From Larus michahellis (lineage: Eukaryota > Chordata > Aves > Charadriiformes > Laridae): DNA of 64,000 nt. Both the position numbers and the translations under genes were made by a program. The stretch's first letter is position 1; every line of letters starts with the position of its first letter. The DNA lies in the NCBI RefSeq assembly GCF_964199755.1, contig NC_133907.1, forward strand, positions 3,973,001-4,037,000, written 5' to 3'. The notes beneath the pieces are model-generated. The model was not told the DNA's origin and did no database searches. It worked only from the letters and a program-made list of their open reading frames with translations. Below, piece by piece: positions 17,785-56,464 of this stretch.

Positions 17785-25615
<7,831 letters not shown>

Positions 25616-27905: not shown

Positions 27906-27909
<4 letters not shown>

Positions 27910-27930
<21 letters not shown>
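27910..27930. repeat. poly(A) run
   Basis: About 21 consecutive A, followed by GAAGAAGAG. There is no recognisable retroposon body to the left. Confidence 0.85.
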
Positions 27931-27936
<6 letters not shown>

Positions 27937-28843: not shown

Positions 28844-28858
28844 TTTTTTTTTTTTTTT
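28844..28858. repeat. poly(T) run
   Basis: About 15 consecutive T after TATTTATTTATTATA. Non-coding. Confidence 0.85.
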
Positions 28859-30560: not shown

Positions 30561-30672
30561 ACAGTCTCTCTGCTCAGGTGTCCCACCGCAGGCTCGGCAG
30601 CACGACGCTGATCCACCTCTTGGACCCCAGCCCAGAACAAGCACACTGACCTTATATGAACAGGCAACACGG

Positions 30673-31673
30673 TCATCTTTTTCTCCATTTGTCTCCAGTC
30701 TTCTTCCCCTGCCCGTGCGCGCTGGTGTTCCTGTGGTGCCACCTCAGCTGGCTCTCTAGTGTATTCACCTGGTGGGGACGAGAAAGCAGCAGCACTAAGA
30801 AGAGTCCGCACTGTTGCACAGATAATCTCTAACCTGTCCCAAATACAAGAAGAAAACACCAGCTCAAGTTACCTTCACTGAGGCTCAAAGTTGCATTTTA
30901 CCCTCCAGTTGTAGAGGTCTGAGCTCACAGAGCTCACCTTCATCTCTCCCCTCCCTACTCTACCTCTTCTCTACCTGCCGCTAGTTCCCTCCGCTCAGAT
31001 GGTTGTTCTTGGCTCTGGAGGGCACAGAAGTCGCAGAGGCTGCCCGTAGCGAACAGCTAAATCCTGCTCCTGGGGTGACTCCATGGAAGACAAAGTTTTA
31101 CCTGTTTCCGTAGGGAAGCAACTGTCTTCTCCAGTTCCGCCACAAGGGACTCGAGATTCTCTCTGGAGGAAGGGCTTGAAGAAGGCGCCTCATTTCTGGG
31201 GCGAGGGATAAGAAGTGAAAGGGATTATGCAAACGGCAGCTCGCTGCATGAAAGAATCATTTTGCCTTCTCCAGTATCAGCCTCCAAGTGAGCATCAAAC
31301 AGAAGGCCCCAACACCCAGATTCACCTGCCAAGAGATGCCAACTGAACAGCCACCCAGCCTAGATATTTAAATACCAGAGTCGGGCTCTGCACTAAAGTG
31401 TTGGAGGACTTTGACTGAGCTCAGCATCTACCTACTGAAACACTCCTGACCTCCAGACCTCTGCAGAATGCCCATTTCAAAGGCCTGAATGGACTGAGTT
31501 ACTAAAAACTTCTCTTATGCTTCATCAAATGGAAGTAAAAGAAGCGGAGATACTACACCTGGGGAAGGCAGGCTTATGCTTGGCAGGGTTTTCTTCTGGG
31601 TAGCTGAAGCCAGGAGACCTTTTGCTTCGGAACCGCTGAGAAAGAGCCCCGAATTGCCCACGCGTCTGGCAGT
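30673..31673 (-). CDS. PXDN-like: peroxidasin-like exons: furin site, coiled coil, early stop
   Basis: Exon 31559-31673 starts [24 protein letters not shown] sits where PXDN has its proprotein-convertase site (RGRR). Exon 31102-31195 encodes the heptad-like [20 protein letters not shown], matching the trimerising helix of PXDN. Exon 30673-30768 continues VNTLESQL, reaches DKWRK, and stops at TGA (30673-30675). In PXDN the equivalent KWKK is followed by the roughly 60-residue VWC domain, which is absent here. The early stop follows a run of five A (30678-30682 on the + strand as T), so a one-base indel or a sequencing error is possible. Confidence 0.85.
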
Positions 31674-34600
31674 CTTGGGAAGGAAGGGAAAGTCTGCAGT
31701 GATCACTCGTGTTTAAAGCAGAAGCGTGTGGATTGAAGGCAGGGCAAGGCAGCGCTGCCCTCCTTCACCACCCACCCTTGACACATCTCACGCCGGAGGG
31801 GAGGAGGCAACAAAGGTGTGTAACAGGGCATGCCTCACGCATGGATTCCCATGTCTCAGCTGGACATCTGTAGCCAGAATATAGCACAAAGGGACAATCT
31901 ATGGTTTAACAGCAGAGTTTTAGACTCCAGACTGAATCTGTGAAGTGACACGTGGTGGGGATCACCATGCCTACGTCCTGCTGCAGTCTCAACAGCACAA
32001 GCTATTGGCTGCTGCCAGAGACAGACGCCCTCAGCCAGGTGGACCTTTGCACAGACTCAATGAAGCTAACAGGCTTCTTCGAGAGGTGGCTGATGCCCTG
32101 TGCCTGTCAGTGTTTAAGAGCTGTATGGACAATGCCTTTAAAAATTTGCTTTAACTTTTGGTCAGCCCTGGAGCGGTCGGGCAGTTGGACTCCTGCACGC
32201 ATCCCTTTGCTGGTTCTCATGGTGTACCATGAAACCAGCTCCTGGTATTTCCTATAAGCTGGTGGCATGTGATGGATGCCACCCAGAGCCATCCCCACGT
32301 CAGTCGGTGGTGGAGCAGCCTCCTTCCTTACCCTCACAACAGTCCTGCCACAATCGGAGGTCCACCGCGGGAATCTCTTCACAGCCGACCATGCCCTGTG
32401 GGTACGATGCCACCCGGAAGACATCTCTCTGGAGCTGCTGGATGTGGTCACTGTTGTCACAGATGACACGAGCAAGGGATGTCTGTCGGATCTGAGTCAG
32501 CTGCGCCGGCGTGAAGACTCCGGGATTCTCATACCAAAATCTGCAGTGGGTTGTAATCACAGCGTGACTCAGGAGTAGGAGAGGAGGACGGGGAGTGAAG
32601 CTGGGAGGAGGAGAAGAGTTCCCCTACGTCTGTGTGGCAGCACCCACACCCCTCAAAAGGAGCTTTTATTCTGGTGTCAGGCAAACACAGACTGCCCTTT
32701 TCCAAACCCATGAATCCCCATGAGCTGCTGGCCGGAGCTGCAAGGTGCCACCACCTGAAGGTAGAGGCCCTGGCAGGGGAATCCCGGGGCTCGCACAGCT
32801 CTGCTGTAGCAGGTTGGGACACGGGTGATCAATGTTCCTGCCCCAAGCACATCAACAGGCAAAGACGTGTCTTATTCACACAAGCAGCAAATAGGAATTA
32901 GAAGGAAGGTCCTGCAGACAATTTCTAGCATTTTCGGGAGACATTGGGCACATCCTCAATGGCGCCCGGAGTCCTGCAGTGAAGTGAGAATCATTAAATC
33001 AGGAAAAGACACATTGACGGCAACTGTGGCAAGTCCTTCTGCCAATGCGCTGGGCAGAGGAGACCCTTCCTCATATCGTAAGACAAGAAATAATAAAAAA
33101 TTACAGGTTTTCTTTCTCCCAGTAGGGAGCAAATCCCCCCAATCAGAATACTAAAGACGTTGGGTTGACTCCAATGATAATACCTATCTCCATCCCTCAG
33201 CCTTCTGAACTGCGTGGTTAACAGGCACATCAGTGTTGGTCCAACTCTGGTACCAGGAACAAGATCCTCCACCATCAGTGCTGGAAACAGGTCAATGTTT
33301 TTAGTAGTTCCATATAAACTGCAGGATAGAAGATAATAATAAAAAAAAAAACAACTTAAAAGACTACCGAAGAGAGGAGATAAAATAAGTCTGATAACAT
33401 CATAGGAATTTGTATGGAAGGAACTCATCTGGACAATATTTATAATGGTCTTATCTAAAAGACAATGGGATAAAGGCCTGCCTTGGAAAGAGGCAGCCAG
33501 TGCAGATAGGATGCTGTTCAGTCTCACTGGAAAATAGCTCCAAGGCTCAATCTGCTCCCAAACTACACCACAGCGGTGCCTGATGACATTCCACTCAGAA
33601 CCAGACTGATCACTTGGAGAGACCTCATTTGTCTTACCCCGTTCTTAAACCACAGCTATTACCCTTTCTTAACATCTGTGGGTAGCAATATCTGGGAAGG
33701 TTATTTGATGGGTGTCCCGGGAGGAGCAGAAACTTCTCACTGACTGATCTCCAGTCATTTTGATGCTTCCAAGTCCAAGCTACAGTACCTCCTGAGCTTT
33801 TCCCTGATCTCCAAGTTCTTTATCTCATTTCTGAGGTCCTCAAACTCCTGTGCAGACGAGAGGTTGCAGAAGACCCTGAAGTCATTGTAAGGTGGGATGC
33901 CATGGTCTCGCCCTCTCTGGATGTTGATAGCGGCCAAGTCCAACGAGACAGAGTGTGCCATGGAGAAGAGTTTCTCTGTCAGCTCCATGTTGAGGAGTTC
34001 AGAGGGGATCCGCATTTTCCCAGGAACCCCAAACAGCCCACGGAGGAGGGGGTCGATCCCACCCTCCTGTGTGATCCTGAAAGGGGAGAAGAAGGCTTTG
34101 TGCAGGGGGATGTGGCCTTGGCGGATGGGCTGGAAGGTTTCATTCAGCCGATACAGGATGGGGTTGATCAAGGTGTGCCCAAAGCGGAAGGCAGCAGTGG
34201 CAAAGGCGTTGAGAATCCCCGCATTGATGTTGGGGTTGTAGCCTTTGTACTCACCCAGCATCTTCATCCCAGCTTCCCCAAGGACCTTGGGGAGCCACTG
34301 GGCATAGGTGATGTGCTGCATCTGGGCACCCACAATCTTCCGTGCCTCATGATACAGGAGGTCTCCATCCCAGTGGGGATTGAGGGCCGACAGCTCCGTG
34401 GCAATGCGGTTGTGCTCCCTGAACCAAAGCGTGTGCATGGCTGTGAGACCCAGCTGCTCGTTGGCACGGTGGTCTCCTGCCAGGAAGCACGGCACGGGGC
34501 TCTCGTTCTCATCTCTCATGCACTCAGTGGGTGGCCCTACAGCAAAGGGAAGGAGATGCTTCCCCGAGCTCGGCACAACTTGCCCTTGCTTCAGCAGCCC

Positions 34601-37600
34601 GTTTTGGCTGCTCAGATCCCGCAGCTCCTGCGACTCCTGCTCTGTGCTGCCGTAAACATTGGAGGCATCGATGTAAGATGTCAAGTGGTTGATCTGCTCC
34701 CTGGCATATACGGAGTTCATCAGCAGGGAGGTCATCCCGCTGCCGCACACGGGACTCGAGCGGACAAAGAACATGCAGCGCCCATTCCTCACGCGGGGGT
34801 CGTTAGCAGGGACCATGACGGAGAAGCAAGGCGGGTCGTTGCTGCACACCTGGCTGCAGGGTGCTCCATCTGAGAAGCGGGACATGCTAATGGCTGCCAC
34901 CGTCTGGTCCATGTCGTGGTCCAGAAACTGGCCCCACTGCATGAGCATGTGCGTGAATTGGTCATCGGGGGTGATGGTCTCAGTCCCGACCATGGCGGTG
35001 GAGACGAGGCGGGGTAGAGGAAGGGGCAGGTCCCTGGCATCTTCTGCCAAGGAAAATCCCCGGGGGAGGTTAAATCCATTCTGGTAGGCGGGTTTGAGGA
35101 GCCTCTGGAAGGCTGTGAGAGACGCACCCCACATCGGGTGCTGGAGGTTGTTGCAAGACCCATCGTGGGTCCTGTACTTCTTGTGGAAGCAGATATCGGA
35201 GCAGTTCGGCGTGCGGCGGTGGGCAGAGCAGCCCGACAGGTTGGCAATCATGTTCAGGTAGTGAGGGGACACCAAGTCGTTGTAGCGATAGCCTGCCAAG
35301 GAAAAGGCAAAGCACCAGGTCAGACCACGGCCGCTGTAGTCACCCGGTTCCTACCACCCCGTTCAGGGCTCTGTGTGAAACCCGCTGCCGGGACTGTCAG
35401 GGTGGACAAGGGAAGGCCAGGTGCCTGATTGTGGTGTTGCTATGGAATTTATGGAATAAATGACGCATGGCATCGCCAACAGGCCCACAGAGAAGAAAAG
35501 AAGGGGAAAAGAGTTTAGTACAAACTGCACAGAGGTGGAAACCAGAAATGTTGTGACTTGCAGACCAAACTGTGGGGATGGTCTTGATCTGTTGGTCTCT
35601 TGGTCTCGGGTTTATTTTACATCTGGGTTATTACTGCCGCCTCGAGCACCATTGACCATCCAAACCCTACGTGACGAGCAGCAGGGAAACCGTGGGTGAC
35701 TGCCAGGGCGACACGCCATGCGAAAGCGCTGAATAATGCCGCACTGTGCAGATGCTGACAGAGCAACGAGGAGGAGAGGCTGGCCGTCCGACCAGCCCAG
35801 GCGAGGCCGGCAGCCCGGAGAGAGACTCCTCGCAGCCTGGAATACATCCAGGCAGGCAAAAATATTCACGGGCCCCAAATGTACATGCCTGCTACACGAT
35901 GACTCACACGTATAGGTGGAAACACGGAGTGCACAGGAATGTCTGTCGTATATAAAGGAAATCTCAGCTAGCAAGCTTTGGAGTCCAGCTGCTGGATGCT
36001 TGGCCCTCACTAGGTGGTTTTGGTGTTGCATTGCTTTGTTGCTTGCTATCCTGCCTCGATAAAAGGAAGCTGAGTGCCTGGAACCCATGTGAGTTTGTAG
36101 CTAAGAGGTCAAAGTAGCACAAAGACAGAGGAGAAAGTCAGGAGTGATATTCCCTTTCCCCTGTTACAGCACCCAAATACTCCAGAGTTTTCAGTATTAT
36201 TCCCATTGCCAGTTGGAGGGCAGGAAGCATCCCTGACCACGATGCTGAGGGACTGAACCCCAGATCCACAAAGGTACCCCTTTGTGAGTTAGATGGTTAA
36301 ATATTTTTAAAGATTAGGGCTTTCACAGCCAGTCAAGTAATCTTTAGCAAAACGGGGAACCGAACCACTTTGCTGAGTACCGCGTAACCTCTGGCCCAGC
36401 CCTCAGGCTGGTATGAAACCCATGAGACGGAAGAGAGCATTGCAACCCAGACAGCACGTTTCTAGACATACCCCAAACTGCGCTTTTTAAACTTCCTGGA
36501 TATTTACACATGGTGTTTTAATTTGATCCTACGCACAAAGTTAAGAAGGGGAATGGAATCTCTCCTACCTGTGACATTCATATCCACGATCAGACCCTGT
36601 TGCACGTGTTCCTGAATCAGCTGCAAGGTCCTTTCAAAGATCTCACCCGCCCTGGCTGTTTCAAGGGTGTAGGGGTCCCGGGGGTAACGGAAAAGGGCCA
36701 GCAAGTCATTGGGCGTCTTGGGGCGTCTGTTTCAAGGAGTTAGAAGTGATGCGGGAACGTTAACATAAATCGACTCTGTTCAGGGCAACGAGACTCTACA
36801 GGCAGCGAGAGCCAGGCTCTGAGCCTGGGCTGGTCCTCGACCCCCAAAACCAGAGCATAAGACCAACGGGGCTTGCCGGCATATCGCAGATGGTTAAAGA
36901 AAGGGTATTCTTCCTCAGGAAAACACACGTATTTAATTTCCTCAGCCTCTCTGTTTTCTTCTGCTATAGTAATTTATTTTTCACTTTTCAACAGCTGAAA
37001 CCCAGAGGTTTTAGGCTTAATACAAACTGTCTTCCTTTTCAATAAAAACATATATTGGGGTGGAAGAGGGGGGAATTACCATTCACTCGGGAAGTCATTT
37101 TTCATCGAGGAAATGATTAGAATTATTATATTATTATTTCTGTTCACCCTACACAAAGTCAGTTGCATTTATAAAACGACTACGCTGATTGTTTTCTTTT
37201 CTATGCGCTGTCTCTGGAGCCAGCTCCAGCTGACAAAACGTACATTGCAGATACAAGTGACATAAGAGGCGATATCTGTGTATCGGATTTCTCCAGAATC
37301 CCAAATGCCTGTTATGAAGCTCTATCACACCCTCACATCTACGTGGTGCAGCTTCAACCTCCGATACCCCAAACAATACTGTAGCTTTCATTTGCGGATT
37401 GTCAACGATAAAATGAGACATGAGAAAGCTTCGTTGTCTCTTTTTTTTTTAATCCCTTTTCTGCTTCAAGTCTCAGGTCACAGCGTTTCACGCACTTACT
37501 TGCTAAACAGCTCGGTGCGCGTTGAATTGATGGCGTGGTCCACGCTGCTGATGGCTTCCCGTATCGACGTGGCTACAAACGTGTCACCGCTCCGACCCAC

Positions 37601-40600
37601 ATCCGTGGCTTTCCAAAGCAGAAAGAAAGAACAAAAAAATTATAAATTTACTTTGATATTAATTTGCCTTCCAAGCTCAAAAGCATCTGTGTACAAGCCT
37701 ACGAATAACTCCACGGCAGGTCAAACTCCGTTTCCATTTGCAACATAAACATCAGTGATTTATTTTATTTTTTTTTTAAATAGATATTCTGAAGAAGAAA
37801 TCAGCTGCCTGAAAAAGAAGGTGACGTTTTCCGGAGATGGCTATGGCATACATATTCAGAGTTTGCTCCTGTACAGCTTTGCAAATAAATGCCTGCTTTG
37901 GTTGGTGGTTAAACTGGAAAAAGAAGATGTAAAAAATCACAGCGGGTTAACCCAAAACAATGTATTTCCTTCCCACGAAAGAAACTTTGAAAATTCATGA
38001 CATTGATTTGAACTTATTGCTCATACAATAATTTTCCATTTGTGGAACACTTCTAATTCAGTTCAACTTTAGCATTAGCACATCAGATACATCGTTTTAA
38101 AACAAAAAAGAAAGCTTCTGTTTGAATATCTTCAGAAGGAAACACACAAATTCTTAAAAATTGCTACAGAATGCATTTTTTAAGCCAGGGCCTTTGTCCC
38201 AGCTGAACAAACCAGCTCCCGTATGGCTACCGGCGTTTGCAATAGCCAGCTGGAAAATGAGCTACCAATCAAGAATAAATCACAGAAATTACCTTAGGAA
38301 TAATTTCAAACAACGAAGACATTTCAATTATTCTCAGCTCCTCGCATACAATTCCTGTACAAAAAAATGACTCTAAATTCACCTAACAAGCTACTCACTA
38401 TTCACGCTGGTTATTCCTGCGTGCTTGAGGAATAGCCCTCCACTTAAATTTTTAACCTTATTGCTTGCCTTTGATTTTTTTCCTGTGTCGGTTCGTCCTT
38501 ACCCTTTAAGAAGGACAATTTCCACTCTCGACCTCTGGTTTGAGTAGAAGAGGAGCGCTACGCCTCTGCATTCATCACAGCTCCCCTAACGCACGGAGCG
38601 GTAGCTTGAAATCGAGCGACTCATTTCCCACCCCCAAGGGACCCAGCGAACATTTAAAACCCCGTATTTGCAGCGACAACGTTGTTCTCCTCCTCCCTCC
38701 CCCGGCGTGCGAGGGTACAGTTAGACGGTGACTTGTGAGCGTGTTGGCACATCTTAATAAGTTTCTCCCTCCCAGCAGAGGCAGTAACTACACGCATGCC
38801 GACAGCTTGGCGTGCAGGAGGTGGTTTAAGACACCACCTTTGGCTTTACAGGGAGAAACTCAAGAAGAACGTGGCCAGCAGGTGGAGGGAGGTCATCCTC
38901 CCCCTCTGCCCTGCCCTGGGGAGGCCACATCTGGAGCACTGGGCCCAGCTCTGGGCTCCCCAGTTCCAGAAGGACAGGGAACTGCTGGAGAAGGGACAGC
39001 AAAGGGCTGCCAAGATGGTGAGGGGACTGGAACACCTCTCTTATGAAGAAAGGCTGAGGGATTTGGGTCTCTTCAATCTGGAAAAAAGACGGCTGAGGAG
39101 GGATCTTATCAACACTTAAAAATACTGAAAGGGGGGGTGTCAGGAGGATGGGGCCAGGCTCTTCTCAGTGGTGCCCGGCGACAGGACAAGAGGTAACGGG
39201 CACAAACTTGACCATGGGAAGTTCCATCCCAACACGAGGAGGAACTTCTTTGCTGTGAGGGTGGCAGAGCCCTGGCACAGGCTGCCCCGAGAGGTGGTGG
39301 AGTCTCCGTCTCTGGAGACATCCCAACCCCGCCTGGACGCGTTCCTGTGCCACCTGCTCTGGGTGACCCTGCTCTGGCAGGGGGTTGGAGGAGATGATCT
39401 CCAGAGGTCCCTTCCGACCCTGTGATTCTATGATTCTATGAAACTGCAGCTCAGCCGAGAGAACAGCGAGGACCAGTTGGGAGGTGCATGGGCTACACAA
39501 CTCATCAACGCCCGCGAGGGACCAGGCTGCAAAGAAGCTAAAGAAATAAGAGAGTTGTCCGTTCCAAGTGTAGGCATCATCACAGCTATAGGCCCTCCTT
39601 ACAGGAGAGCAGGAAGGAGACTCAGGAGGAGCACAGGAGATGATACCCTACCGGTGATGGTGAGCTGCATAGCGCTGGAGGTGAAGCCAAAAGGGTTTCT
39701 TGCTATGCACTCGTATCTGCCCTGGTCAGCCACGCCGAGGTCTTGAATGGAGAGGGTCCCGTCTTGGCTTATGTGGAACTTGCCACTCTCTGTGATCTGG
39801 ATACCCTCCTGTTGCACCATCAAAAGACAGAAAACGTGTCAGGGTACGGAAAGCTTCCCACCATCCCAGCCTTCAGCCTGTTCAGCAAACCCGCAGGCAG
39901 ATGCGATGAACTAATGTGTCCACCAGATGTTAGCATTGCTCTTTCCAGAGAAACCAGAAAGGCATCCGAGGACATCTGCTCCTGCCCGAACCCCCTGCGA
40001 GGAGGTCCTTGGCTCAGCTCCTTCACCCTGGTCCACCTCCAGGCACTCACTGCGGGGCACAGACACCCCACGCCTTTCTCCGAACTTCTTACAGATGGGC
40101 TGGCTGGAGCGCGCCCTGTGCCCTGATGTTGTCATAGAAGTTCCATGGCACATAAAAGAGGCTAAATGTCTTCAGTTTTGGGACAACCTGAAACCAACAG
40201 AGTTTTGTTGGCCTTGAACTGCAGGTACCAGCTTTTGCTGGCTCTGGGCAGGATCGTGATCAAAGTGCTGCGAGCAGCAGCACACTCAAACCCGACCTCT
40301 CAATTGGGCTGGTGGCAGAAGTGGCTTCAGGTTTCACTTTTTTATTCTCCTGTTCCTTAACATCTTCCTGCTGCCCTGCCCCCATCTAATGTTTACTGTG
40401 CTGCCCTGCCAGGCTCTTTTCTTCTGCTCCCGATGTTGGTTGGAGCCCAAGGCAAGCTGCAAGGTCACCTCCCACGAGACCCTCTGCGGGGTAACTGAGG
40501 CTCCAGCATTTTCCCCCAATTTGTTCTGTGCCTGACCGTGCTCGCAGGCAGGGCAGGTCCCAGGGAAGGTCCCAGGTATTGTACTACGGCACAGCAGGAA

Positions 40601-43600: not shown

Positions 43601-46600
43601 AGCCATGAATTCTCCGCAGCACTAAACCATTAATTATGGCTTGTGAAGCATAAGGAAAAGCTGGAGGGCCAAGCGTTATTGGCTTCTGTCCCAGAAAGTG
43701 CTGGATGGGATCAGTCCAGTGAAGCCAGCGCTAACAATCATCCGAGACTTTAAAAGTTCACCACCACCTGTTGGCCCAAAGTGGTTTTTCCTAAGCTAAA
43801 AGGAACCTCAGAGGTGTGTCAGTGGTGAACGGAGCTCTCCCGCAATGCACTCCCCAAGAGCAGCAAATCAATGACAATGACGGAGAGCTGGTACATGGCC
43901 ATACCCACCGCCTTGGGAGTGTCCAGACCCTGCCTTTTCAAAGGAGGTAGGAAGCCACCGCAGGAGGAAGCTTGAGGCTTTCCGTGGGTTTCATGCTGAT
44001 GAAAAACAGCACACTCCTTCCTTCTGACATGATGACTTAGTGTGTTAAAGACCTAAGAGGCTCCTTCCTCAGTGCTTAGCATCATCCTTGGTGATCTACG
44101 ACATACCTCCTAGTGTGACTAGGTCTGTGCTGACCACCATCTGTCCTGTGCCACCACTGCAAGTCATCGCCCTGGACCAGCAGCTTGTCTGTCCTCACCC
44201 GCACCCCGTGGATGGTAGCACAGAAAAGAAAGAAAGCCTGAGTCAAGTGAGGCCATACCTGCCCTCGTCCAGGCAATGACAGGTGGAGGGTGACCCTCAG
44301 CAGAGCAGGGGAAATCCACACTTTGTCCCTCAGTCACTGTCTGATCAGTGGGGATGAGGAGAAACCTGGGAGAATCTGGAGGGGAAAGCAATGACTGAGC
44401 AGCAGCAAAGACCCAGGCAACAAGCTCGGGTTAATTCTTAGTTCATGGGGACAGAACCAGCCACAGGGCTTAAATACAGCACTTTATCCCAGAAATTTCA
44501 TCAGCCTGAGACTCCTCACCTTGCACTATGATCCTTGCTGTCGCCTGGATGGATCCCTCGGTGTTGCTGGCATTGCAGTTGTACTGTCCTTGGTCCGAGA
44601 AGGTGACGTTCTGAATGAAGAGTCCTCCAGAGCTGGTGATAGTGAAACGGGAATCCTGCGGTAAAGGAGAGCCTGTGCCAAGGGTCCAACTGATGCGAGG
44701 GTGGGGGTGCCCAGAGACCCCACACTCCAAGGTGACGCTTTCCCCAATCAGCACTTCAGTGTTCTGCGGCTGGATCACAAAAGTGGGCTTGGCTGCAAGG
44801 AAACAAGTGCTTCAGAAACCAGAAGCCCTACTGCCTCCTCAGCTGTGGGCAGAAATTGCTTGGACTCCTCATGCAGCCCAGCTAGCGGCCACCCGGCTCT
44901 TCCCTGACCTCCAAATCCTTCATGTGAGAACTCCCCCAGTGCTGCTACTTCCTACCACGTCCCCAAGCTGGTCACTTAGTGCTGGAGCACCCCCAGTACC
45001 TGTGTCCCCTTCACCCTTGATACCTCTGTCACGCAGAATTCATCCCAGCCTCCAAACTCTCTCCCCAGCCCCAAATTACCTTCAATCTCTAAACCCCCAG
45101 TTTCCCACTCCCATGAAGGAACCCCCTAAAGCTCAGACCACACTACACCGTTACCCACTCTCTTCCCAACCCGAGATGCGCCTACAAGAGGTGCACAAGA
45201 CTCAATTACATGGGGTGCCAAAATAGCGCAGAACGACTTCTTGTGTCTTGACCTCCCCAGCTATGTTCTTGGCCATGCACTGGTAGACGCCTTTGTCCGA
45301 CTCCTTGGTATTCTGGATCATCAAGGTACCGTCTTGCAACAGGTTCAGGCGACTGTCATCTTTCATGTCAATCTCGTTACTGAAAAACAACCACAAACAA
45401 GCAAAATACAAAAGGAGTAAAGACTGGTGGTGGTCTTCCCCCGCGCTGCTGGGGGAGCGGTGGGGCTTTGCGTGCATTGCAGTAGGTTGGTGTTCCTTGG
45501 AGCTATTCTGAGACTTCATGAAATTTATAGCAAGAGTTATGATTTACAGCACTGAGCTCCGGCTCCAGCTCCGGTTTACTCCCTGGGTGAGCTACTTTTC
45601 CTCTCACCACTAATGACATAAAACATTTACAGCCCATCGGGAGAGCATACTGTTCCCATGCAACAGCATCATTGCCATTGTCAGGGCATCTAGGCCCAGA
45701 AAGCTTGTTCTCATTATTTACTAAGTGCAAATATAATAATGAATTAATACTGTTATTGTGTGCAGACGTTTCTATTCGAAAGGGCTCAAAGGCCTCAGGG
45801 GGGCAAAAAGCTCTGAGTAAGTCACTGTGGGACCCCAACACAGCTTGGACTCCAACCCAACCCGAGAGCTGTGAAATATCTTCTTTCTTTCTACAATGAC
45901 CTGCGACTCCTGGATCCCAGCCCGCGGCAGAAGGTCCCACTGCTGCATCCCATTTGTCCCAGCACGAAGGAATCTTGGATGGCTGCAGATGATTGAAGAG
46001 GGAGAAGGGACCTCTCTCCCCCTAGGACAAAGGCTGAATCCACTATGCAAACTAATATGCTTGCTGGGCATTTATTTAATTCCCCTGATGTCTCCTCACT
46101 CTAGTCATATCTCGTTTGTGGAACATTTATTATCATTACCCCTCTTACAATGCTATTTTTGGGAGCCTGCCAGCATTTCCCTAACAAAACCTTCCTTCCA
46201 GGGGACTTAACTCAGCCATAAACTTTTGCTCTGTGCTGAAACTCTGCCTGGTGGGGAGTTAGCTGAAGAAGCATACATCGATCATTTTTATTAATAACCG
46301 AGCCCTATTCAGGCTCCCACAGACAAGAAGCTCGTAAAGCAGCAAAGTTACTTCACTTCCACAGTGGGCAACTGCTTGAGCACAGAATATTTTATTGTGC
46401 AGCATTTCCCAGAAACAATTTAGCATCTAGCGTAGCCATGTATTTTGTCAGCGTTGCTGTATAGAATGATAATCCATACGCTGCTTTGCAAGGTCTGTCT
46501 TTCAGCGGAGCACAGTGATTTTTCCCTTTGAAAAAAAGCCATTCTCCCGGCCTGCTAGGCCTTCAGTGAGAAAAACCTAGAGACTAGCAGCATTTCAGCA

Positions 46601-49600
46601 GTTAATAAATGGCAAGCGCGGTGGCTTAGAGCAACATGAAATACTAATTTTATTATTATTATTTTTTTTCTGATCAAAAGACAATTGCTTTCAGCCTGCA
46701 GAGCATGTTTCTGGGAAAGTTATAAGCTCTTGGAATCCATTACAAATGCAGACGAAACATTTCGAATGCAGATGAAAATGCCACTTGGATTATGTGGTCA
46801 CCAGAGAATGGTATTAAAAGGAAGGTAAATACAATCCATGGAATATCCATTTCTTTTTTTTTTTTTTTTTTTACGTTGCGTGAAACAGCTTTTGTAATTA
46901 CAGGCAGTCACTGAGGAGCTCGGTGCTTGAAAACCTTTGCCACCCCAGGGCTCATTGTGCGCGACTTACTTGTTGTGCAGCCAAATAATTGCAGGCTTTG
47001 GGTTGCCTTCTGCCCTGCAGGTGAAATAAACTGTGTTTCCCAAGAGGACGTCGACGTCGTGGGGTTCGGAGGTTATGCGAGGTCTCTCTGCAAAAGACCG
47101 TTTTAACACAACCCAGTCTAGAGCGGCACAAAACCACTTCCAGCCCAACCGGAGCTTCGTGGGCAACGCAACCCCCGTCCTGCAGCCCCCGCGCAAGCAG
47201 GCACCAACGGAGCCCTCAGCACAATGGCACCCACTCGGAGCCACACAAGATTTCTCACCAACATCAGCAAAAATGACATCAGGGAGGGAAGAGCATCATT
47301 CATCTGAGCCCGCTAAAAGCCCTGGAGAATTGAAGAGGCTGTTCCTACTGCCAGTGCTGCCCCTCTGCTCCACCCTGGTGAGACCCCACCTGGAGTGCCG
47401 TGTCCAGCTCTGGAGTCCCCAGCACAAGGACATGGACCTGTTGGAACGGGTCCAGAGGAGGGACATGAAGATGATCACGGGGCTGGAGCCCCTGTGCTAC
47501 GAAGACAGGATGAGACAGTTGGGGGGTTCAGCCTGGAGAAGAGAAGGCTCCGGGGAGACCTCAGAGCCCCTTCCAGTCCCTAAAGGGGCTCCAGGAAAGC
47601 TGGGGAGGGACTCTGGATCAGGGAGGGGAGCCATAGGATGAGGGGGGATGGCTTTAAACTGAAAGAGCAGAAATTCAGATTAGATATCAGGAAGAAATTC
47701 TTTGCTGTGAGGGTGGTGAGCCCCTGGCCCAGGTTGCCCAGAGAAGCTGTGGCTGCCCCATCCCTGGAGGGGTTCAAGGCCAGGTTGGACGGGGCTTGGA
47801 GCAACCTGGTCTGGTGGGAGGTGTCCCTGCCCAGGGCAGGGGGTGGCACTGGATGATCTTTAAGCTCCCTTCAACCCAAACCATTCTGTGATTCTGTGTC
47901 GGGCAGTGGATCAGCTCCCCGCTCAGCCCCAGGCAGCACTGGGACAAAACAGACCTGGCTGTGCGCTGGCTCACTAGAGCTGCCCCAAGACTTGATCCCT
48001 GGCTCCCCCAAAACAAACGAAGAAGTCAGTGGCATCCTCACTTGGGTTGTTTTTCTGCCCCTGGCAGCCTGCGGCTCTCAGCAACTGCCTTCTCCATCTG
48101 AAAACAGCGCCAGCTCTCTGCAAATCACACCATTTCTCTTTCGGCAGGATTTCATTCATTACGTCCCTAATTCATCAGCCGATCCCTATTCAGCCAAGCC
48201 TTTCACTACGTGCTTCACTTTTAAGATGTACTCAAGCACTAAACAAGTTAAACATTTAAAGGATGTGTGAAAATGGGAAGGAATTTATGTACGTGATCTG
48301 GAGCGCTTGATCTTGGTTCTGCAGAATACTTACCCGTCTAACAATCTGTACGCTCACCAGTAATCCAGTAAAACCAGCTGGATTATTCATAAGACTAAAT
48401 GAGGACCTGCCACTTTCTCCAGTGGAGGGTCTGTGCCCTTACTCCTTAGATCTCAAGTTAATGGCTTGGCAACTTGTCCCCAGTGGCAACGCCAGTGCGG
48501 GACCAAACCCACCACAGCCCCGTGGTACAAAACGCTGATCCAGCGCAGATTTGCTCCGCTGTCCCACATCTGCTAAAATGCGGTGGGTTAACTCGATGCC
48601 AGCAGGCCTCGTACCGACTCAGATATCAGCTGCCTGCATCGTTAGAGCTTTACGCTGAATTATGCATCGTTTGTCTTCTCCAGCTGGCACAATACCAGCG
48701 TAAAAGCCTAATGCCAGCAAAATCTTCCCACCAGGTGCTCTGGCTAATTTGACTGACATCCCACTGTGCGCCCGTGCCTCAACCAGAACAAATTTACATT
48801 AACGGCTGTACCGTGGCAGCGGGTATGTGCTGGGGACACCTCGTCGTGTGGCACATCCACTTGCAGCGGATCCCACTCCATGTGTCCCCAGCTGCTTTCT
48901 CTAGACCCTTCCTATTCCCACCCCCCCCAGCCCTGAGGTTATGGACCCATTTGTGCCAATTCAACTCTTTGCATGGCTGTGCCCTAAATTAAGCTATGAA
49001 ATGGTCAAAATTTTTTTAAAAAATAAGATCATAGGGGAAAAGTAGAATTCAAGGGAGGGTTCTTCAAAATCCAACTGATCTCACACATCTGGCTCACAGC
49101 ACAGCCATGACGGGCATATCCAGGAGGGATGCTGGGAGCTGGCCCGGGGGACTGGGAACATCTCACACTGACTCTACCAGCAGTGAAGCATCAGGGAACC
49201 GCAGCCTGCTGATGCCCGCGCTTAGAAGTCGAAGTTTTATCTTCTTCTACATGAAATATTTAACTTTGGGATTTTTCAGAACAAAACCTTTCATTTCAAA
49301 ATGGCGTTTTTCAGTGAGAAATTATCTAAATGGAAAGACTAACTGCTTAACAAAGGCAATACATTGCCACAGCCAAACAAAGCATTCGGCTACGGATCTA
49401 CTAAGAGTTTGCTTAGGCTTTCAGTTGTGTTTCCAGCCTCCCCTTCTGTTCAGCCCAATATGGGACATTTCTTCTAGTTGCTGGTTTAACCACTGGCCCC
49501 AGTAGGTCCTTTACTGGTCCTACTCTACCTAAAAACCAAGACAACACCTGCCAGCCGAAACAGAGCTGCTGCCAACCCCCACGCGACTTTCTCCGCGTTA

Positions 49601-52600
49601 TCCTGATAACTCGCATGACCCCGCTGGGACTTTCCCATTTCAGCAGTAAAAGGATGGAGAAAGCAGGATGCCAGGGCAGGGAAGAGGGAGGGAAAGGGGT
49701 GGAGGAAGCGATTCCCAGACCAGAGCCCAGCTCCACGGGCTGAGGGTGGCCGGTGGAGGGCTTTGACCTCGCTCACCGCAGTTAAATTCCTGGGCCGTCA
49801 AGGTGACGATGGAGCGCCCGTGCAGCTCCCGCGGCGCCTCGCAGGTGGCGGCCGTCTGGATGCTGCCCTGCTCGGCGTATTTCCTCAGCAGCTCAGCCAG
49901 CCACATCAAGTCGCAGTCGCAAAGCAAGGCGTTGGAGTCCAGCCGCCTGCAAGACCGAGGAAAAGGCAGGTCATTTCCCAGCCTCTGGCAGCTGCCTCCT
50001 TCTCCGGGACACGGCGGGGGAACAGTCCTCCAGAGCGAAGGATCACCTGGCTGTGCCTCCCCGCGTTGCGTTATATCCCAAGTGAAAATTTGAGATATTT
50101 CATTCCCACAATGTTTAAATAGGATGCTTAACCGAGTCAGAAGGATTTTGTTGAAAAACTATCATCTCCCATCAGCCGTTCCAGTTTCAAACGAAAATTA
50201 TTCTTTCAAACTCTATTATGCAATTTGGGCTTAATTTGAGGCACAGAGACACACTGAAATATTGGTATTTCCCCCAGGATGGAGATTTCAGCCTCTACTG
50301 AATTCTGTAAGAGCAGCAGACAACACCACCTCTGTCAGAGCTTTCTATGCTCTTTTACTCTCAGCTCAAAAAAATTCCCCCTTGATTTTAGCGTGCATCG
50401 GATCACCCTCTGCCTGTGCCCAGCTGCCAGAGGCTGGAGCATTCCTGCACAACTATAAGAACTTTTATTACTGCAACGTCGCCCTGAGCCATGCCGAATG
50501 GCGCACTGGTGACCTCCCTGCGCGCCCGTGCTCTTCCCTCCCCTGACCTCATCCCCCTGCACAGTGCTATGCACAAGGACAAATAAAGATTACAGGGGGA
50601 TTAGTCGATGCCCCCTTCCCCACTGGCAGTTTTACAGGAGATGGGTCAGGGCCATTGGAATAAAAAACATGGAAGAAAGGTCTAACGTTTCCAGGGACAA
50701 ACATTTGAGAATGTGAGATTTCACACAAAGCCCCGACGGAGCATTTCATAGACACCCCACCTTTTTCTCTGACATGTACAGGCAACATTTCACAAGTTAT
50801 TCCCTCTTAAAGAGAAGTGAGGAATTTTACCTGCTTGCAGAAATCACGGAGGGCTGCAGTGAGAAACGCATTATTTTCTCGTAGTTCAAAATCATGGCAG
50901 AACACCAAAATTCTGTAATTTTTGCTTTTTTCCCCAACACACGTCATAGAACTTACTTCCAGGGATCATAAAAGACAAACAAAGCAAAGTTCGGGGGGGT
51001 TTAAGCAAGCAAAAAGTAAGCTGAAAAGACAGCCAGGTTATGTGGGAATAATACACCGAGGCATTTCTTCATGGGATAAGAATCATGCACCTCGGCACCC
51101 CTCTGAGTATTTTCAATCTCTAGAAAAAAAAGCCTTTTCTTTTACGACTATGACTTTTCCTTCCCTGTTAGATACTGATCTGAAGACACGACCGAGGTCA
51201 CATCTGTGACTTGGACTTCCTACACTTTTGAAGGATGTTTTATGGGTTCAAGCTGTGTAGGACAGCAGAGGGTTGTGAGGACTTTCCAGGAACGTTCATT
51301 CCTGTGGTATTTTTGGGCTGTAAGAAGATTATAGTTAGATTATAATTAGACGCTACCATGAAGAAACCACTAACTGGTTAAATGAGCTCTCACGTCCAAT
51401 CAAAACTGTTTTATAAACTTCGCAGCGGCCTTAGAAGTGCAACAACCGAAAGCTTTGCCAACCAGGCGCATTTTTGCTCAGGTCCAGGCCATCTGATCAA
51501 AGATAAACAACTGCTCTTTGCAGGCAATGTTTTTTACTTACAGCCGTTTGAGGGATTCCAGTTGAGAGAATGTCCCTGGATGAATCCTGGAAATCTTGTT
51601 GTTGTGCAAGAATCTGCAGCGGGAGAACCCATGCCAAAACATTATTCAGTATTTGCACTACGCGGATGGTAACATCCCGGGTCAAAACTCAGTTTAAATA
51701 CAAAGTCTGCTCATCAAAACGGAGCTTGCTTTTTAAATTTACTGTGGTTGTTTCCACGAGCTATAGGGATTTCATCCATTTGCAACTGCAATGCAATACA
51801 CCAAAGCGGAGAGCGGGTGTGGACTGGAAACAGTGACTCAGAAACGTGATGTAACAGGTTTAAACTGGAACCTTAAAATTAATCTGCTTCATGCTCTGCA
51901 AAGGGAGGAGAAAGGGCACGAAATCCCCCCAGACTGGACCCACCCTGTGTTTTCTGCGCCTGGGTCAGCTCCAGTTTAGAGGGGACCTTTTCTTTTCACC
52001 CCTGCAGAAGAGACGGCAGTTTTACAAGGGCAGGCACTGAAGTAAGGCTCCAGCAGAAGACACTAGACTAAACGTAGTCATTAACCCAAATCCATGAGTA
52101 GATCTAATTCAGACAACAACAGCCTAAGCTGGGCTTATCTCCGAAAAAGGTGAAGCAAATTCTCACTTCCAGAGTCTCAGCGCACAGGTGAGACTCCCCA
52201 GTTCTTAGAAAAAAAAAACCGCTGATTGCCCTAAAATGCATCAATGGGGACGAAGATGGGATAATTAACTCTCCATTCCCATAACAGAGGGGGAAATTTT
52301 GTCACATCAGTTACATCTAAAACTCGTAAGAGACCATTGACAAAAGATAGGAAGCAATTTTAGTAGATGGTGGAACAGGAGAGAAACGCAGAAGCAGCAC
52401 AGCTTGCGTGCAAATGTCTGCACACACACGTGTACGCGTGAGTTCCGCCTAGCTGGATGCTGACAAACCTTCCCCTAAAATTTAAATCCAGAATTTTTGT
52501 TGGATCAAATACAGAGACTGAGATCAGCCACGGCGTGCAGATCCAGGGCTGAATTTTCCTAATGGTGTTTGGATCCCATGATTTTCTTTTCCCGTCATGT

Positions 52601-55600
52601 ATGGACGTAAGGCACATTCCCATGCAGCACCAAAGGGTCTGTTGGTTTCACCATGGAGTGGGAAACATCACGAGAACTTTCGTCCTAGTGGCTACATTAC
52701 TATTAGAAGCAATTCTGGGGAGCATGCGCCGCAGGACTTTGTTTCCTAACTGCTTTCAAGAAGAACGCGTGTTTTTCGTGTTAGATTTTCTTCTGACTTT
52801 ATTCCTTTTCCACCCCCTTTTTTTCGTACGCCCTGCCCAACACTGACTAATGTTGACCTTATGGTCAGAGTAAAATTTCAATTGGCTTGGCCAACTGTAG
52901 GGCTTTCTGCAGATTTACCCCTACTTAGGTGGAAACATGAATATAGCACAAGACGGGAAATTCCCTTCATACTCTCAGTAACCCTTCTACTTGGCAAGTA
53001 CATAAAATCTCCTTCTTCAAGGAAGCTTCTTTTTGCATTTCCCTCCATTTTGAAGATCACACTTCATGCTACCAAAACGGTTAGATAAAAACAAAGGGAT
53101 TTTTCCCCTTCTCCTCACCCCCTTACTCCCAAGAAAGGTCCCATCTTTACTTACAGCCTTTCAAGTTTCGGCAGGTCACTAAAAGTCTCCAGCTCCAGAC
53201 TTTCCAGGTTGTTGAAATGCAGGTAGCTGCCGCACAGAAAATCACAGAGGGCAGGGTTACAGATTGCAATTTAAAAGCTAGAAGATCGTTTTGGACCAAT
53301 CCCCCCAACACCCACCCACTGGTCACCACACTTCTCAGGGCAGATGGGGAGAAGCCAGCGTTCACTTTAGCATCTCCACTTTCCACGTGCAAACGCAGTA
53401 GCCAATGCTGTTTTTTCCCTATTCTGCCAATTATTTGCTCTTTCTATTAATAAATTAAAACACACAAAGAAAGAAGGACAGATTTGATCTTCCCTGAAGC
53501 CCAAGACCACCACCATCGCTGTGAATTGCCTGTTGCACTGTTAAGGGATGCCCATGGAGATGCAGTAGCAGCTGCTCCCATCTGAGTACCGTACGGGATC
53601 CTCTAGTGCCTTGGCATTCCCCAACACATCCCTGGATCATCAGGGAGGAAGAAAGGAAGGAACAGCCTTACTACAAGGCACTTGTTCCCAGCCTTGGAAT
53701 TGCAATTTTCTGAGTGGGATCATGAGTTTCCTGAGAGTTCATTTGTAGAAAAAGGCCCTGAATAACCTGTTCCTGTTTGTTGCTGGAGGTTGGACTGGAG
53801 ACACCCAAAGGTCTCTTCCAGCCTGCGTTTGTCTGGGATTGTAGCAGGGGCTCCCAGCACGTGCATCCCCCCAGCACGGGCAGAAACGGCTGCCACTGGG
53901 CTATTCTCTTTCTGCGGAGGGAAGGCGGAATCTCCAAAGACAGAGACGGTGCAGTCCCTGGTGCAGTCAGCTGGAACACTTGGATCCAAATGGCACATTA
54001 ATGCGAACAGCCCACTTCTTGCTAATACAGGTTAATATTTTTAGTTCCATTGAAATCTCAAGCGTGACCTGCTATTCCAGAGGCCTGGGAGACCTTCTGC
54101 ACTGCCCCGGGTCACCCCTTGCCTTCAGCAACGGAGACCTGGGGTCTGCAGAGCGACACACCGCGACACCTGAGACTCCCTGTTCCCATTCACTGGCACA
54201 ACCGACACATTCCTGACCTTTACGTGCACTTCAGCACGGTTTCAAAGTTGCCTAAACTCTTCTCCCTTATTTCACACAGGCATAAATTTCACAGCAGACG
54301 CTGATTAATCACGGATCTACAAATACTCATTCTGCTATTGTAGCTGAGTGCATTGAGAAATAATTGCCTAAGCCGCCACATGGCTGTTTGATTTGTAATG
54401 GAAGGATTCATGATAAATGGTCCGCTATCAAGAGCGCAAACCGAGAGATGGTGACTCAGATTCTGCAGCGGAGGGCAACAGCGGGGAGAGATGTACGCGC
54501 TTTAATAAGTCTCAGATGTCTCCTGTCATTGCTTTGGACCTGGAGGAAAGCATCTGATACCGTCCATCAATCGGGTTCTACTTTTTCTTGAAAAGCTGGC
54601 TTGTGGGGTACAGAAAACGGGGTAGGATTTGAGCAAAGCTAATTCTTTTGGAACCATGCCTGCCCGGGATTGAAAACAGATGGGACTTTCAGCGGGTTGT
54701 TTGTTGGTTTTGTGGGTTTGTTGTTTTTTTTTTTCCTTTTATTCGTGACATCAAGTCTGGAACGCTTATTGTTAAAGTATCACTCTGGCCAGCATCATCT
54801 CCTCTCTAAGCATAGCTGAGCCGGTATCTCCTTCCTATTTCTCTCCCAGGCATCCTTGCTGAGCCGGCTGATGAAAAACCATCTTGTATCCACGGCTGGT
54901 AGCACACCTATTATTGAGCTTGCCTAAAACTTCCCGTTAGACTCTGTCCGCTTGTGCTGCAGCCTAGAGAACAAGCTGAAGCCTGTCCCTTTTACAGCAA
55001 AATCCTCAGTTACGTTCCAGCCCTATAAACACTGTCATTTGGCACAATCCATGAATTAGAACGGTTTCACCTTTGGTCCCAGTTCTCCAGTGATGCAAAT
55101 AATTCCTATACTTCAAACATCCATGCTCACACTCTCGCCATATGTACACACGTATTTACACACATGCACATAATATATCATGAGCCCGGCATGAAAAATC
55201 CAATCCCAGTTTATCAAGACGCTTTAGAAGAGTCAGACCTCAGTCTTCCCATCTCGCCTTGAGCACGGAGCACAGAGTCAAACCCCAAAACGTCTTTGAA
55301 TAAACAGCACAGATTTACCATACACAGAAGGGGAGCAAATAAGGACTGCCAGAGTGTCACCGTGATGGGCTCCAGCTGCCGGGAAAACATGGGAGGCTCC
55401 TTTCATCCCAGAGTGCCAGGCAGCTTGGAGGGAAGGTCATTACTTTGGTTTTTTGGGTCCATCATCTTCCCTCCATTGCAGTTTCCAGATGCTTTACAGC
55501 ACGCGAGCACCACCATCACTCCCCCACAAATACCCCGCAGCCCCAGCTCTCAGCTCGCACTTCATCCATTTGTTTTCGGCAAGGGTTTGGGTAACAGAGA

Positions 55601-56464
55601 AACTCGACCAGCTCCCTCTGTTCAAGCAAAGGGCCAGATCCTACTGGCTGCTCCAGGAGTCCCAGCAGACACAAACACAGCAGGCCAGCTGCCTTCTGCT
55701 TCAAGCCATCCTACAGACCCCTATCTCCTCCCATCGTAAGGTCCTTGGATGTGAAGGGAATCAGAAGCACAGCTGGGCTCTTCCTATGCTCCAGAGGTTT
55801 AGAGTCAGGAGCAAAATTATGGGACGTCAGTAGGAAGAGACCCCAGCATTAACTAACCAAGATCAGTACTGGGACCAGCTGTTTTCAAATGAAGCCAGTG
55901 TAGTCTTGCAAAGCCGGATGATGAAAGAGAAGAAGCCTCATCCTACTCCTTGCTAAGTGTCTGGTACTCTCCACTACTGGAACCGCAGCGCTTGGGTTAG
56001 AGGAGCCAATAATCAGCTCTCATGCACACCACACTCAGTGACAAACAAGGCTTGTTTGTACTTACAGCTGTTCCAGAGAACGGAGCCCGTTGAAGGCATG
56101 TTGCTGGATGCTCTGAATTTCATTTTTATAAAGGTAGCTTTCAAAAGGAGAGAAAAAAACCCCAACATTAGGCTAACTGATCAGCAGTTGTGTTTTAAAG
56201 AGACACAGGAAAACAGCTGTGAACCTCAACCCAGAGCAGAGCTTGCTGACTGGATTCAAGGGCAACGTTTTATAGCTGTGACATGAACATCCAGGAATTC
56301 TGAGCACCAAAAATACATCCTTGACCAGCAAACGTTAAAAGTGGCTTGTTAAATTTCAAAGAGGTTAAGAAATTACTGAGCTATCAACTCACAGGTATTT
56401 CAGGTTCTCCAGATCTTCAAAGGATCTTCTCACAATTTGTTTTATTTGATTATTGTTCAGCAGC
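30673..56464 (-). CDS. PXDN-like: peroxidasin-like gene, 5-prime partial
   Basis: Twenty exons in a continuous, phase-matched frame (1327 residues): 56393-56464, 56066-56137, 53155-53226, 51542-51613, 49777-49946, 46970-47087, 45210-45379, 44520-44792, 44259-44375, 42563-42721, 41103-41215, 39652-39808, 37500-37608, 36569-36726, 33789-35292, 33184-33318, 32332-32540, 31559-31673, 31102-31195, 30673-30768. The order is LRRs, LRRCT, four Ig domains, linker, haem peroxidase, furin site, coiled coil: the peroxidasin layout. Peroxidasins are secreted matrix enzymes that make hypobromous acid and form sulfilimine cross-links in collagen IV. Catalytic and haem residues are intact. The signal peptide, LRRNT and first LRR are not found, and the C-terminal VWC is missing. 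Several segments ([34 protein letters not shown]) fit PXDNL better than PXDN as I remember them. Family is certain; paralogue is not. Confidence 0.93.
31955..32195 (+). mobile_element. CR1 LINE fragment in peroxidasin-like intron
   Basis: It contains the CR1-type 3-prime blocks GAGAGGTGGCTGATGCCCTG, CTGTCAGTGTTTAAGAG and CTTTAACTTTTGGTCAGCCC, then GGTCGGGCAGTTGGACT. The octamer tail is lost. It belongs to an older CR1 subfamily than the copies at 21.8 and 38.9 kb. Sense is +, opposite to the gene. Confidence 0.8.
32332..35292 (-). CDS. PXDN-like: peroxidasin-like exons: haem peroxidase domain
   Basis: One 1504-base exon (33789-35292) plus 33184-33318 and 32332-32540. The distal pocket is [11 protein letters not shown], with the haem-linking Asp and the distal His. 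[12 protein letters not shown] gives the catalytic Arg and the second haem-linking Glu. [10 protein letters not shown] gives the proximal His. The cysteine framework ([41 protein letters not shown]) is complete. The domain ends [11 protein letters not shown]. By residue content it should be an active animal haem peroxidase, unlike human PXDNL, where the distal region is changed. A long plus-strand open frame across this exon is a mirror of the coding strand. Confidence 0.96.
36569..37608 (-). CDS. PXDN-like: peroxidasin-like exons: linker before peroxidase domain
   Basis: Exon 37500-37608 encodes [20 protein letters not shown] and STRTELFS. Exon 36569-36726 encodes [20 protein letters not shown] and a [19 protein letters not shown] helix. 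Both are strongly conserved in peroxidasins and form the non-catalytic helical segment leading into the peroxidase domain. Confidence 0.94.
38850..39440 (+). mobile_element. CR1 LINE fragment in peroxidasin-like intron
   Basis: Long CR1 3-prime segment with these landmarks: TGGAGGGAGGTCATCCTCCC, GGCCACATCTGGAGCACTGG, GAGAAGGGACAGCAAAGGGC, TATGAAGAAAGGCTGAGGG, GAGGAACTTCTTTGCTGTGA and the tail TGATTCTATGATTCTATG. It ends about 210 bases from the Ig4 exon. The sense strand is +, antisense to the host gene. No intact reverse transcriptase is present. Confidence 0.95.
39652..41215 (-). CDS. PXDN-like: peroxidasin-like exons: Ig domain 4
   Basis: Exons 41103-41215 ([33 protein letters not shown]) and 39652-39808 ([25 protein letters not shown]). 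The ESGKFHIS stretch is a PXDN hallmark. The exon starts in phase 0 after GCAACAG and ends in phase 1 before GTAGGG. Confidence 0.93.
42563..44375 (-). CDS. PXDN-like: peroxidasin-like exons: Ig domain 3
   Basis: Exons 44259-44375 ([23 protein letters not shown]) and 42563-42721 ([26 protein letters not shown]). Both Ig cysteines and the core Trp are kept. The intron of about 1.5 kb includes AT-rich sequence and a poly(T) run near 43187-43202. Confidence 0.93.
44520..44792 (-). CDS. PXDN-like: peroxidasin-like exon: Ig domain 2
   Basis: A single 273-base exon for a whole Ig domain, starting [17 protein letters not shown]. The cysteines are in VTLECGVSG and GQYNCNASN, and the tryptophan is in ISWTLG. 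The donor is CAAG|GTGAGG. Confidence 0.94.
45210..47087 (-). CDS. PXDN-like: peroxidasin-like exons: Ig domain 1
   Basis: Exons 46970-47087 and 45210-45379. The first begins [14 protein letters not shown] and has the B-strand cysteine in VYFTCRAEG. The second has the F-strand cysteine in [11 protein letters not shown] and ends LRYFGTP. Both are near-identical to PXDN at these points. The intron between them holds a long T run at 46854-46872. Confidence 0.94.
46854..46872. repeat. poly(T) run
   Basis: About 19 consecutive T, roughly 100 bases from the Ig1 exon on the downstream side. On the transcribed strand it is poly(A), so it is not the polypyrimidine tract of that exon. Confidence 0.85.
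47330..47900 (+). mobile_element. CR1 LINE fragment in peroxidasin-like intron
   Basis: CR1 landmarks: GGTGAGACCCCACCTGGAGT, GACCTGTTGGAACGGGTCCA, GAGGAGGGACATGAAGATGA, AGATATCAGGAAGAAATTC, GGTTGCCCAGAGAAGCTGTG, and the tail CATTCTGTGATTCTGTGTC. Sense is +. It lies about 250 bases upstream of the Ig1 exon on the host gene. Confidence 0.95.
49777..49946 (-). CDS. PXDN-like: peroxidasin-like exon: LRR C-terminal cap
   Basis: A 170-base exon encoding [20 protein letters not shown], then the capping cysteines in ATCEAP and EFNCG. The four-cysteine LRRCT pattern (CDC, C, C) is complete. The donor is CTGCG|GTGAGC. It joins the Ig block in phase 1. Confidence 0.95.
51542..56464 (-). CDS. PXDN-like: peroxidasin-like exons: four leucine-rich repeats
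   Basis: Exons 56393-56464, 56066-56137, 53155-53226 and 51542-51613 are each exactly 72 bases, one 24-residue LRR per exon. All start after one base of a Leu codon and end in CT, so they are interchangeable modules. Peptides include [30 protein letters not shown] and [10 protein letters not shown], each followed by the F..L..L..L half. They match consecutive PXDN repeats. An upstream LRR and the LRRNT should precede 56464. Confidence 0.93.
53775..53850 (+). mobile_element. possible short CR1 3-prime remnant
   Basis: GGAGGTTGGACTGGAGAC followed by CCAAAGGTCTCTTCCAGCCTG resembles the last 60 or so bases of CR1 before the octamer tail. The tail is degraded to GTCTGGGATTGT. It is short, so the call is tentative. 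Confidence 0.5.

Follow-up and report, generated by a model that had tools for sequence, protein, structure and literature searches.

A probable third vertebrate peroxidasin beside PCMTD2- and MYT1-type genes in a bird genome

In this study, we analyzed a 64,000-nt window of the Larus michahellis genome (C16:3973001-4037000), in which a peroxidasin gene occupies positions 30673-56464 on the - strand and extends by two further exons past window position 64000. This gene, referred to here as the window gene, is very probably a third vertebrate peroxidasin, a copy dating from the early genome duplications, whose product would most likely be secreted and act as a haem peroxidase bound to the matrix. 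It is not PXDN, and most likely it is not a PXDNL that has moved either, because a separate PXDN lies on contig C3, a decayed peroxidasin stands at the PXDNL-type site on contig C2, and the three loci share their synteny. The sequence-only reading had proposed an ohnolog of PXDNL on the 20q13.33 side, and these two other copies, together with the PCMTD2- and MYT1-type genes around the window gene, supported that proposal. We infer the date of the duplication and the presence of the gene in birds at large.

A peroxidase profile run over the source genome (1.4055 Gb, 616 contigs) gave 31 exon-level matches, located at the window gene (C16), at a second peroxidasin and TPO-like exons (C3), in two MPO/LPO-type sets (C11) and at a broken match (C2), with weaker matches on C12, C13 and C19. 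The C3 peroxidasin is a separate PXDN, a gene that the earlier reading had suggested looking for in the same genome, and its exons 2-23 were free of stops; its row starts at exon 2, as exon 1 fell outside the stretch used, and the edges of exons 11, 20, 21 and 23 are uncertain. A PXDNL beside PCMTD1 had also been looked for in this genome, and a peroxidasin was indeed present at that site on C2, adjoining a PCMTD1-type gene and an ST18-type cluster as in the 8q11-type arrangement, but only as a wreck. Within the 106 kb examined, remnants of 9 of 23 exons followed the order of the gene along a single strand, spread across 85 kb, seven at E 0.007 or better and two weak (0.23 and 0.32), and the peroxidase match contained six stops in 588 bp. 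Because these remnants keep their order and strand, the C2 copy is an unprocessed wreck that decayed in place.

The exon-15 remnant, an overlapping out-of-frame stretch and the tail of the exon-19 remnant were left out of the C2 alignment, which comprised 431 columns for the tree and 394 for identities. In the best tree, the wreck joined human PXDNL at 86/86, below the tool's star. Grouping of the wreck with bird PXDN alone was rejected (p 0.0017) and with the PXDN pair weakly rejected (p 0.042), and a clade of the wreck, the window gene and PXDNL was not rejected (p 0.44). The wreck matched the window gene together with PXDNL in 12 columns, the window gene together with PXDN but not PXDNL in 18, and both PXDNL and PXDN but not the window gene in 11. 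By its place mainly, and less by its sequence, the wreck leans towards being PXDNL.

These observations bear on the possibility that the window gene is PXDNL itself, relocated in birds. Such a move would suit the bird members placed in the peroxidasin 2/PXDNL branch of a 2012 tree (PMC3533774), the 72 alignment columns in which the window gene sides with PXDNL against PXDN, and the clade of the C2 wreck and the window gene, which was not rejected (p 0.12). However, decayed multi-exon peroxidasin remains lie by PCMTD1 and the ST18-type cluster on C2, their single-partner columns favor PXDNL alone (16, versus 5 for the window gene and 5 for PXDN), and the window gene has PCMTD2- and MYT1-type neighbors of its own in the same order. 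With a wreck persisting at the PCMTD1-ST18 site, we rejected relocation as highly improbable.

The window gene, PXDN and the C2 copy sit on arms of one published paralogon, with shared neighbors in one order. MYT1-family zinc-finger clusters occupy C3:111.255-111.359 Mb, C2:125.592-125.626 Mb and C16:4.082-4.107 Mb. Like the peroxidasins, the three clusters are on the - strand, and every cluster lies upstream of one peroxidasin, so that the order is the same at 3 of 3 loci. Only two of the 21 MYT1-family matches fell off these clusters (C16:16.3 Mb and C23). The chance of all three peroxidasin loci lying <300 kb from such clusters was 2e-9, a post hoc figure that assumes uniform placement and carries little weight. 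On C2 and C16, PCMT-type genes stand between the peroxidasin and the MYT1-type cluster, and the two other sites of this family (C3:60.7 Mb and C4) are distant from the peroxidasin loci. Over 107 amino acids, the C2 PCMT-type gene shared 96% identity with a human PCMTD1 comparator that is not a database record; its C16 counterpart was 89% identical over 109 amino acids and 44-76% in three more segments, which is the pattern expected of PCMTD2. Eight matches to the TFIIS_M profile were obtained, and the three that are equal in span (C2, C16:4.42 Mb and C23) were taken for TCEA genes; SOX17/18-family matches numbered one on C16, three on C2 and one on C3. The TCEA- and SOX17/18-type genes on C16 lie ~0.4 Mb beyond the window gene, the PCMTD2-type gene and the MYT1-type cluster. 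Since all these genes flank the window gene on C16, misassembly is unlikely; the genes on both sides are of the 20q13.33 type, contig C16 is 17.7 Mb long, and the window contains no N.

From gene content, we take contigs C2, C3, C16 and C23 to correspond to chicken chromosomes 2, 3, 20 and 23. In human, PXDN neighbors MYT1L, PXDNL neighbors PCMTD1 and ST18, and MYT1 and PCMTD2 form a pair at the end of 20q. A 2010 report located the chicken opioid receptors on a paralogon of chromosomes 2, 3, 20 and 23 and analyzed 27 neighboring families, MYT1 included; neither "PXDN" nor "peroxidas" occurs in the main text of that report (PMC2865548). A block duplication of PXDN or PXDNL that postdates the two genome duplications and predates the divergence of birds and mammals would be compatible with the protein tree, which does not date the split. 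We nevertheless regard it as very improbable in view of the pairs of MYT1-family and peroxidasin genes on three arms in one order and strand, the further families on the same chromosomes (TCEA and SOX17/18 types) and the published 27-family analysis of that paralogon (PMC2865548).

In sequence, the window gene was 70.8% identical to bird PXDN (of 1349 positions), 70.0% to human PXDN (of 1403) and 61.9% to human PXDNL (of 1386), whereas bird and human PXDN were 87.2% identical (of 1401). A recent duplicate of PXDN was thus ruled out (71% versus 87%). Human PXDNL had the longest of the vertebrate branches. Where bird and human PXDN agreed, the window gene shared the residue with PXDN against PXDNL in 197 columns, sided with PXDNL against PXDN in 72, and stood apart in 89 in which PXDNL and PXDN agreed. 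The earlier remark was that several segments look closer to PXDNL than to PXDN; overall, the gene is closer to PXDN. The trees had five or six rows, in part of sequences that are not database records, with one human PXDNL. The two PXDN sequences were joined at 100/100, and a grouping of the window gene with bird PXDN alone was rejected (p 2e-6). The suggested tree, run in this small form, separated the window gene from the PXDN of its own genome but gave sisterhood with PXDNL only 52/43. Nor does the gene occupy the PXDNL site beside PCMTD1 and ST18.

The human comparator sequences agree with published values in their lengths (PXDN 1479, PXDNL 1463; PMC3533774). They also agree at four residues (Gln823 and Asp826 of PXDN, Trp808 and Glu811 of PXDNL), at the cleavage site of each protein (Arg1319 in PXDNL) and in the length of the tail past it, 143 residues in PXDN and 144 in PXDNL (PMC8533639).

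The joined model of the window gene comprised 22 exons and 21 introns and encoded 1406 amino acids, with its ATG at C16:4047723 and its TGA at window positions 30675-30673. The exons were found in strand order by tblastn, with human PXDN and PXDNL as probes. Splice sites of this gene and of the C3 PXDN were picked at GT/AG beside homologous segments, so the GT-AG rule holds by construction; phase consistency of the window gene does not, and the phases agreed at all of its junctions (the C3 phases were set to follow the window gene). No stop occurred before 30675-30673, which is also the lower edge given in the sequence-only reading. Pfam recognized An_peroxidase (2.5e-202), four I-set stretches and LRRs. 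The protein runs from a signal-peptide-like start through LRRs encoded by five exons and four Ig domains to the haem peroxidase domain. Its combination of LRRs and Ig domains with an animal haem peroxidase domain places it in the peroxidasin family (subfamily 2). The full peroxidasin architecture that had been described on the - strand was accordingly confirmed as to family, strand and coordinates by Pfam and the 22-exon model, except that exons 1 and 2 lie outside the window and the VWC module has decayed.

All exons are on the - strand. Exon 1 (C16:4047723-4047560) encodes the LRR N-terminal cap and a signal-peptide-like start, hydrophobic as judged by eye only (MLLKPAALPGFLCFLLLPSFSCS), and exon 2 (C16:4037278-4037207) the first LRR; both lie beyond the window end. 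LRRs 2 to 5 are encoded by exons 3 (56393..56464), 4 (56066..56137), 5 (53155..53226) and 6 (51542..51613), identified by tblastn, splice sites and phase, and the LRR C-terminal cap by exon 7 (49777..49946), where Pfam LRRCT was just under the cut-off. Supported by tblastn, the splice model and Pfam, the Ig domains follow in exons 8 and 9 (Ig 1, first half 46970..47087 and second half 45210..45379), exon 10 (Ig 2, 44520..44792), exons 11 and 12 (Ig 3, 44259..44375 and 42563..42721) and exons 13 and 14 (Ig 4, 41103..41215 and 39652..39808). Exons 15 (37500..37608) and 16 (36569..36726) encode the linker preceding the peroxidase domain. Exon 17 (33789..35292) is the longest and the main peroxidase exon, its 1504 bp equal to the length of C3 PXDN exon 17, and it matched the Pfam profile and a myeloperoxidase chain (5mfa, E 9.2e-130). 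The peroxidase domain continues in exon 18 (33184..33318) and ends in exon 19 (32332..32540), exon 20 (31559..31673) carries a furin-type RSKR|S at the position of PXDN Arg1336, and exon 21 (31102..31195) a coiled-coil-like segment; exons 15, 16 and 18 to 21 were defined by tblastn and the splice model. Exon 22 (30651..30768), placed by the splice model, closes the frame at the TGA, with a VWC-like remainder out of frame.

Exon 22 was 118 bp in both the window gene and the C3 PXDN model, and the frame ended where the VWC module would start. Past the TGA, VWC-like sequence continued in another frame with its cysteine codons changed, and 10 of the 10 PXDN cysteines of this region were absent from the open frame, whereas outside it all PXDN cysteines were kept except one in the signal peptide. 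The last VWC exon was not found in 24000-30900 with three probes, whose best scores (18, 20 and 24) did not surpass those of 15 mononucleotide shuffles (9-30), against reference scores of 120 (bird PXDN on human PXDNL) and 68 (bird PXDN on the C2 wreck). The window gene therefore lacks a C-terminal VWC module. This module is described for vertebrates and is absent from invertebrate clades 1, 2 and 4, and so does not define the family (PMC3533774).

All seven catalytic positions tested were kept in the window gene: the Asp and Glu of the haem esters, the distal Gln, His and Arg, and the proximal His and Asn, which together make up the peroxidase active site. The equivalents of Gln823, Asp826 and Asn421 are among the residues retained, and all three are changed in human PXDNL. 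Also kept were the furin-type site and two cysteines of PXDN, which we take to be those of the trimer bridge. Because this catalytic set is kept, unlike that of human PXDNL, the window gene is predicted to encode a functional peroxidasin-type haem peroxidase that is secreted. Its product would be cleaved by furin, may resemble processed PXDN, and could probably make hypobromous acid and crosslink collagen IV. At the three changed positions human PXDNL carries Trp, Glu and Ile, and it showed no peroxidase activity when expressed in cells (PMC8533639, PMC3533774). The sulfilimine crosslinks in the collagen IV of basement membranes are made by peroxidasin; what mammalian PXDNL does is described as practically unknown (PMC8533639).

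The protein could instead be an idle matrix scaffold like human PXDNL, or the gene could be in early decay, given its broken VWC exon, the last exon missing from 24000-30900 and a fast-diverging C-terminal segment. Nonsynonymous difference to bird PXDN was 0.44 in that segment, 0.14 in the peroxidase domain and 0.19 overall, with synonymous difference saturated at 0.87. We consider this explanation unlikely in light of the 1406 open codons over 22 exons, the low nonsynonymous change outside the C-terminal segment, the three retained residues that human PXDNL has changed, and the invertebrate clades 1, 2 and 4 that also lack VWC (PMC3533774). Moreover, loss of VWC need not abolish activity, because in PXDN it sits in the fragment released by furin.

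Several points weigh against an active third ohnolog. One genome only was searched, the human and fly comparators were not database records, and the names of the neighboring genes were inferred. The fork of the window gene, PXDNL and PXDN was 52/43, with other arrangements at p 0.44 and 0.41. Two early duplications in quick succession would leave an open three-way fork of this kind. Identities of the C2 wreck (of 394) were about equal, at 204 with PXDNL, 200 with bird PXDN, 197 with the window gene and 191 with human PXDN, and its clade with the window gene, as noted above, was not rejected. The loss of VWC could mean early decay.

Compared with known systems, the window gene shares with PXDN (Pxd1) a capped LRR region of five exons, the four Ig domains, the peroxidase domain and the exon structure, as well as the catalytic residues, the two presumed trimer-bridge cysteines and the furin-type site, and differs from it in identity, locus and the missing VWC. 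With PXDNL (Pxd2) it has the architecture and the 72 columns in common, but it carries Gln/Asp/Asn rather than Trp/Glu/Ile and lies beside PCMTD2/MYT1-type genes instead of PCMTD1/ST18, where the separate wreck on C2 stands. It shares the haem peroxidase domain with MPO, LPO and EPO, which are not known to have LRR or Ig domains. Two MPO/LPO-type exon sets were observed on opposite strands ~22 kb apart at C11:12630646-12662746.

Soudi et al. (2012) compared 106 peroxidasins and split those of vertebrates into Pxd1 and Pxd2, with birds in each branch; their entries include GgaPxd02 (1338 amino acids), MgaPxd02 and 03, TguPxd02 and four from Anolis, and the passages and two sections considered here name no third vertebrate class (PMC3533774). 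The same source describes Gln91 and Asp94 (LPO numbering) as missing from group Pxd2. The window gene keeps the equivalents of both; therefore, a bird Pxd2 with them would be an exception to that description. One or more of GgaPxd02, MgaPxd02 and TguPxd02 may be the window gene in other birds, and the window gene itself may well be in databases. In a preprint on a 39-species selection data set, a figure legend mentions alignment trouble at the 3' end of bird "PXDNL" (PMC11601313); if this is the same gene, we would guess that the decayed VWC is the cause. Among the papers listed, no title or abstract opening announced a third vertebrate peroxidasin, nor was a third ohnolog met there whose genome also has a decayed peroxidasin at its PXDNL site.

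Elsewhere in the window, open reading frames with SH3 and kinase domains (17785..25690, - strand; Pfam) belong to a tyrosine kinase gene that we take by sequence resemblance to be SRMS, which fits the earlier placement of the peroxidasin about 5 kb upstream of it. Exons at 10300..11520 on the + strand, from the list of open reading frames, are PPDPF-like, a name assumed from sequence resemblance. A second tyrosine kinase (PTK6) was not seen between these genes, at 12000-17785; in human, PTK6 lies between PPDPF and SRMS. Fragments of open reading frames in introns and spacers (~21430-22290, 38850-39650 and 47030-47870) look like remnants of CR1 LINEs, a label assumed from resemblance. On C2, three SOX17/18-type matches of equal score lie in tandem ~9 kb apart (C2:126643442-126661296), which represents a local triplication or an assembly effect.

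Considering the above results, we propose a highly probable model for the origin of the window gene. The early vertebrate genome duplications would have produced a four-way paralogon, of which the window gene would represent the 20q13.33-type arm (chicken chromosome 20), and its sisters PXDN and PXDNL the 2p25-type and 8q11-type arms, respectively. Mammals would have kept PXDN and PXDNL, and the source bird PXDN and the window gene, its PXDNL decaying in place. The LRR and Ig domains would hold the product in the matrix, where the peroxidase domain would oxidize bromide, as PXDN does for collagen IV crosslinking, and the VWC that is absent would correspond to a part of the furin-cut C-terminal fragment of PXDN.

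As a tentative extension, about which we remain in some doubt, most "PXDNL" of birds, and perhaps of other non-mammals, could be this third ohnolog, an active crosslinker devoid of VWC, with sauropsids and mammals having lost opposite copies. If this is true, inferences drawn from bird and mammal PXDNL compare different genes, and mammals went from two working peroxidasins to one. The window gene brings one more family to a duplicated region that has been studied in detail, and the source genome would show what once lay past PCMTD2. It would also be a natural case of matrix crosslinking by two enzymes, in which a peroxidasin free of VWC tests the role of that module. Our results suggest that dividing vertebrate peroxidasins into two branches is an oversimplification, and that what has been recorded for bird "PXDNL" may belong to a different gene.

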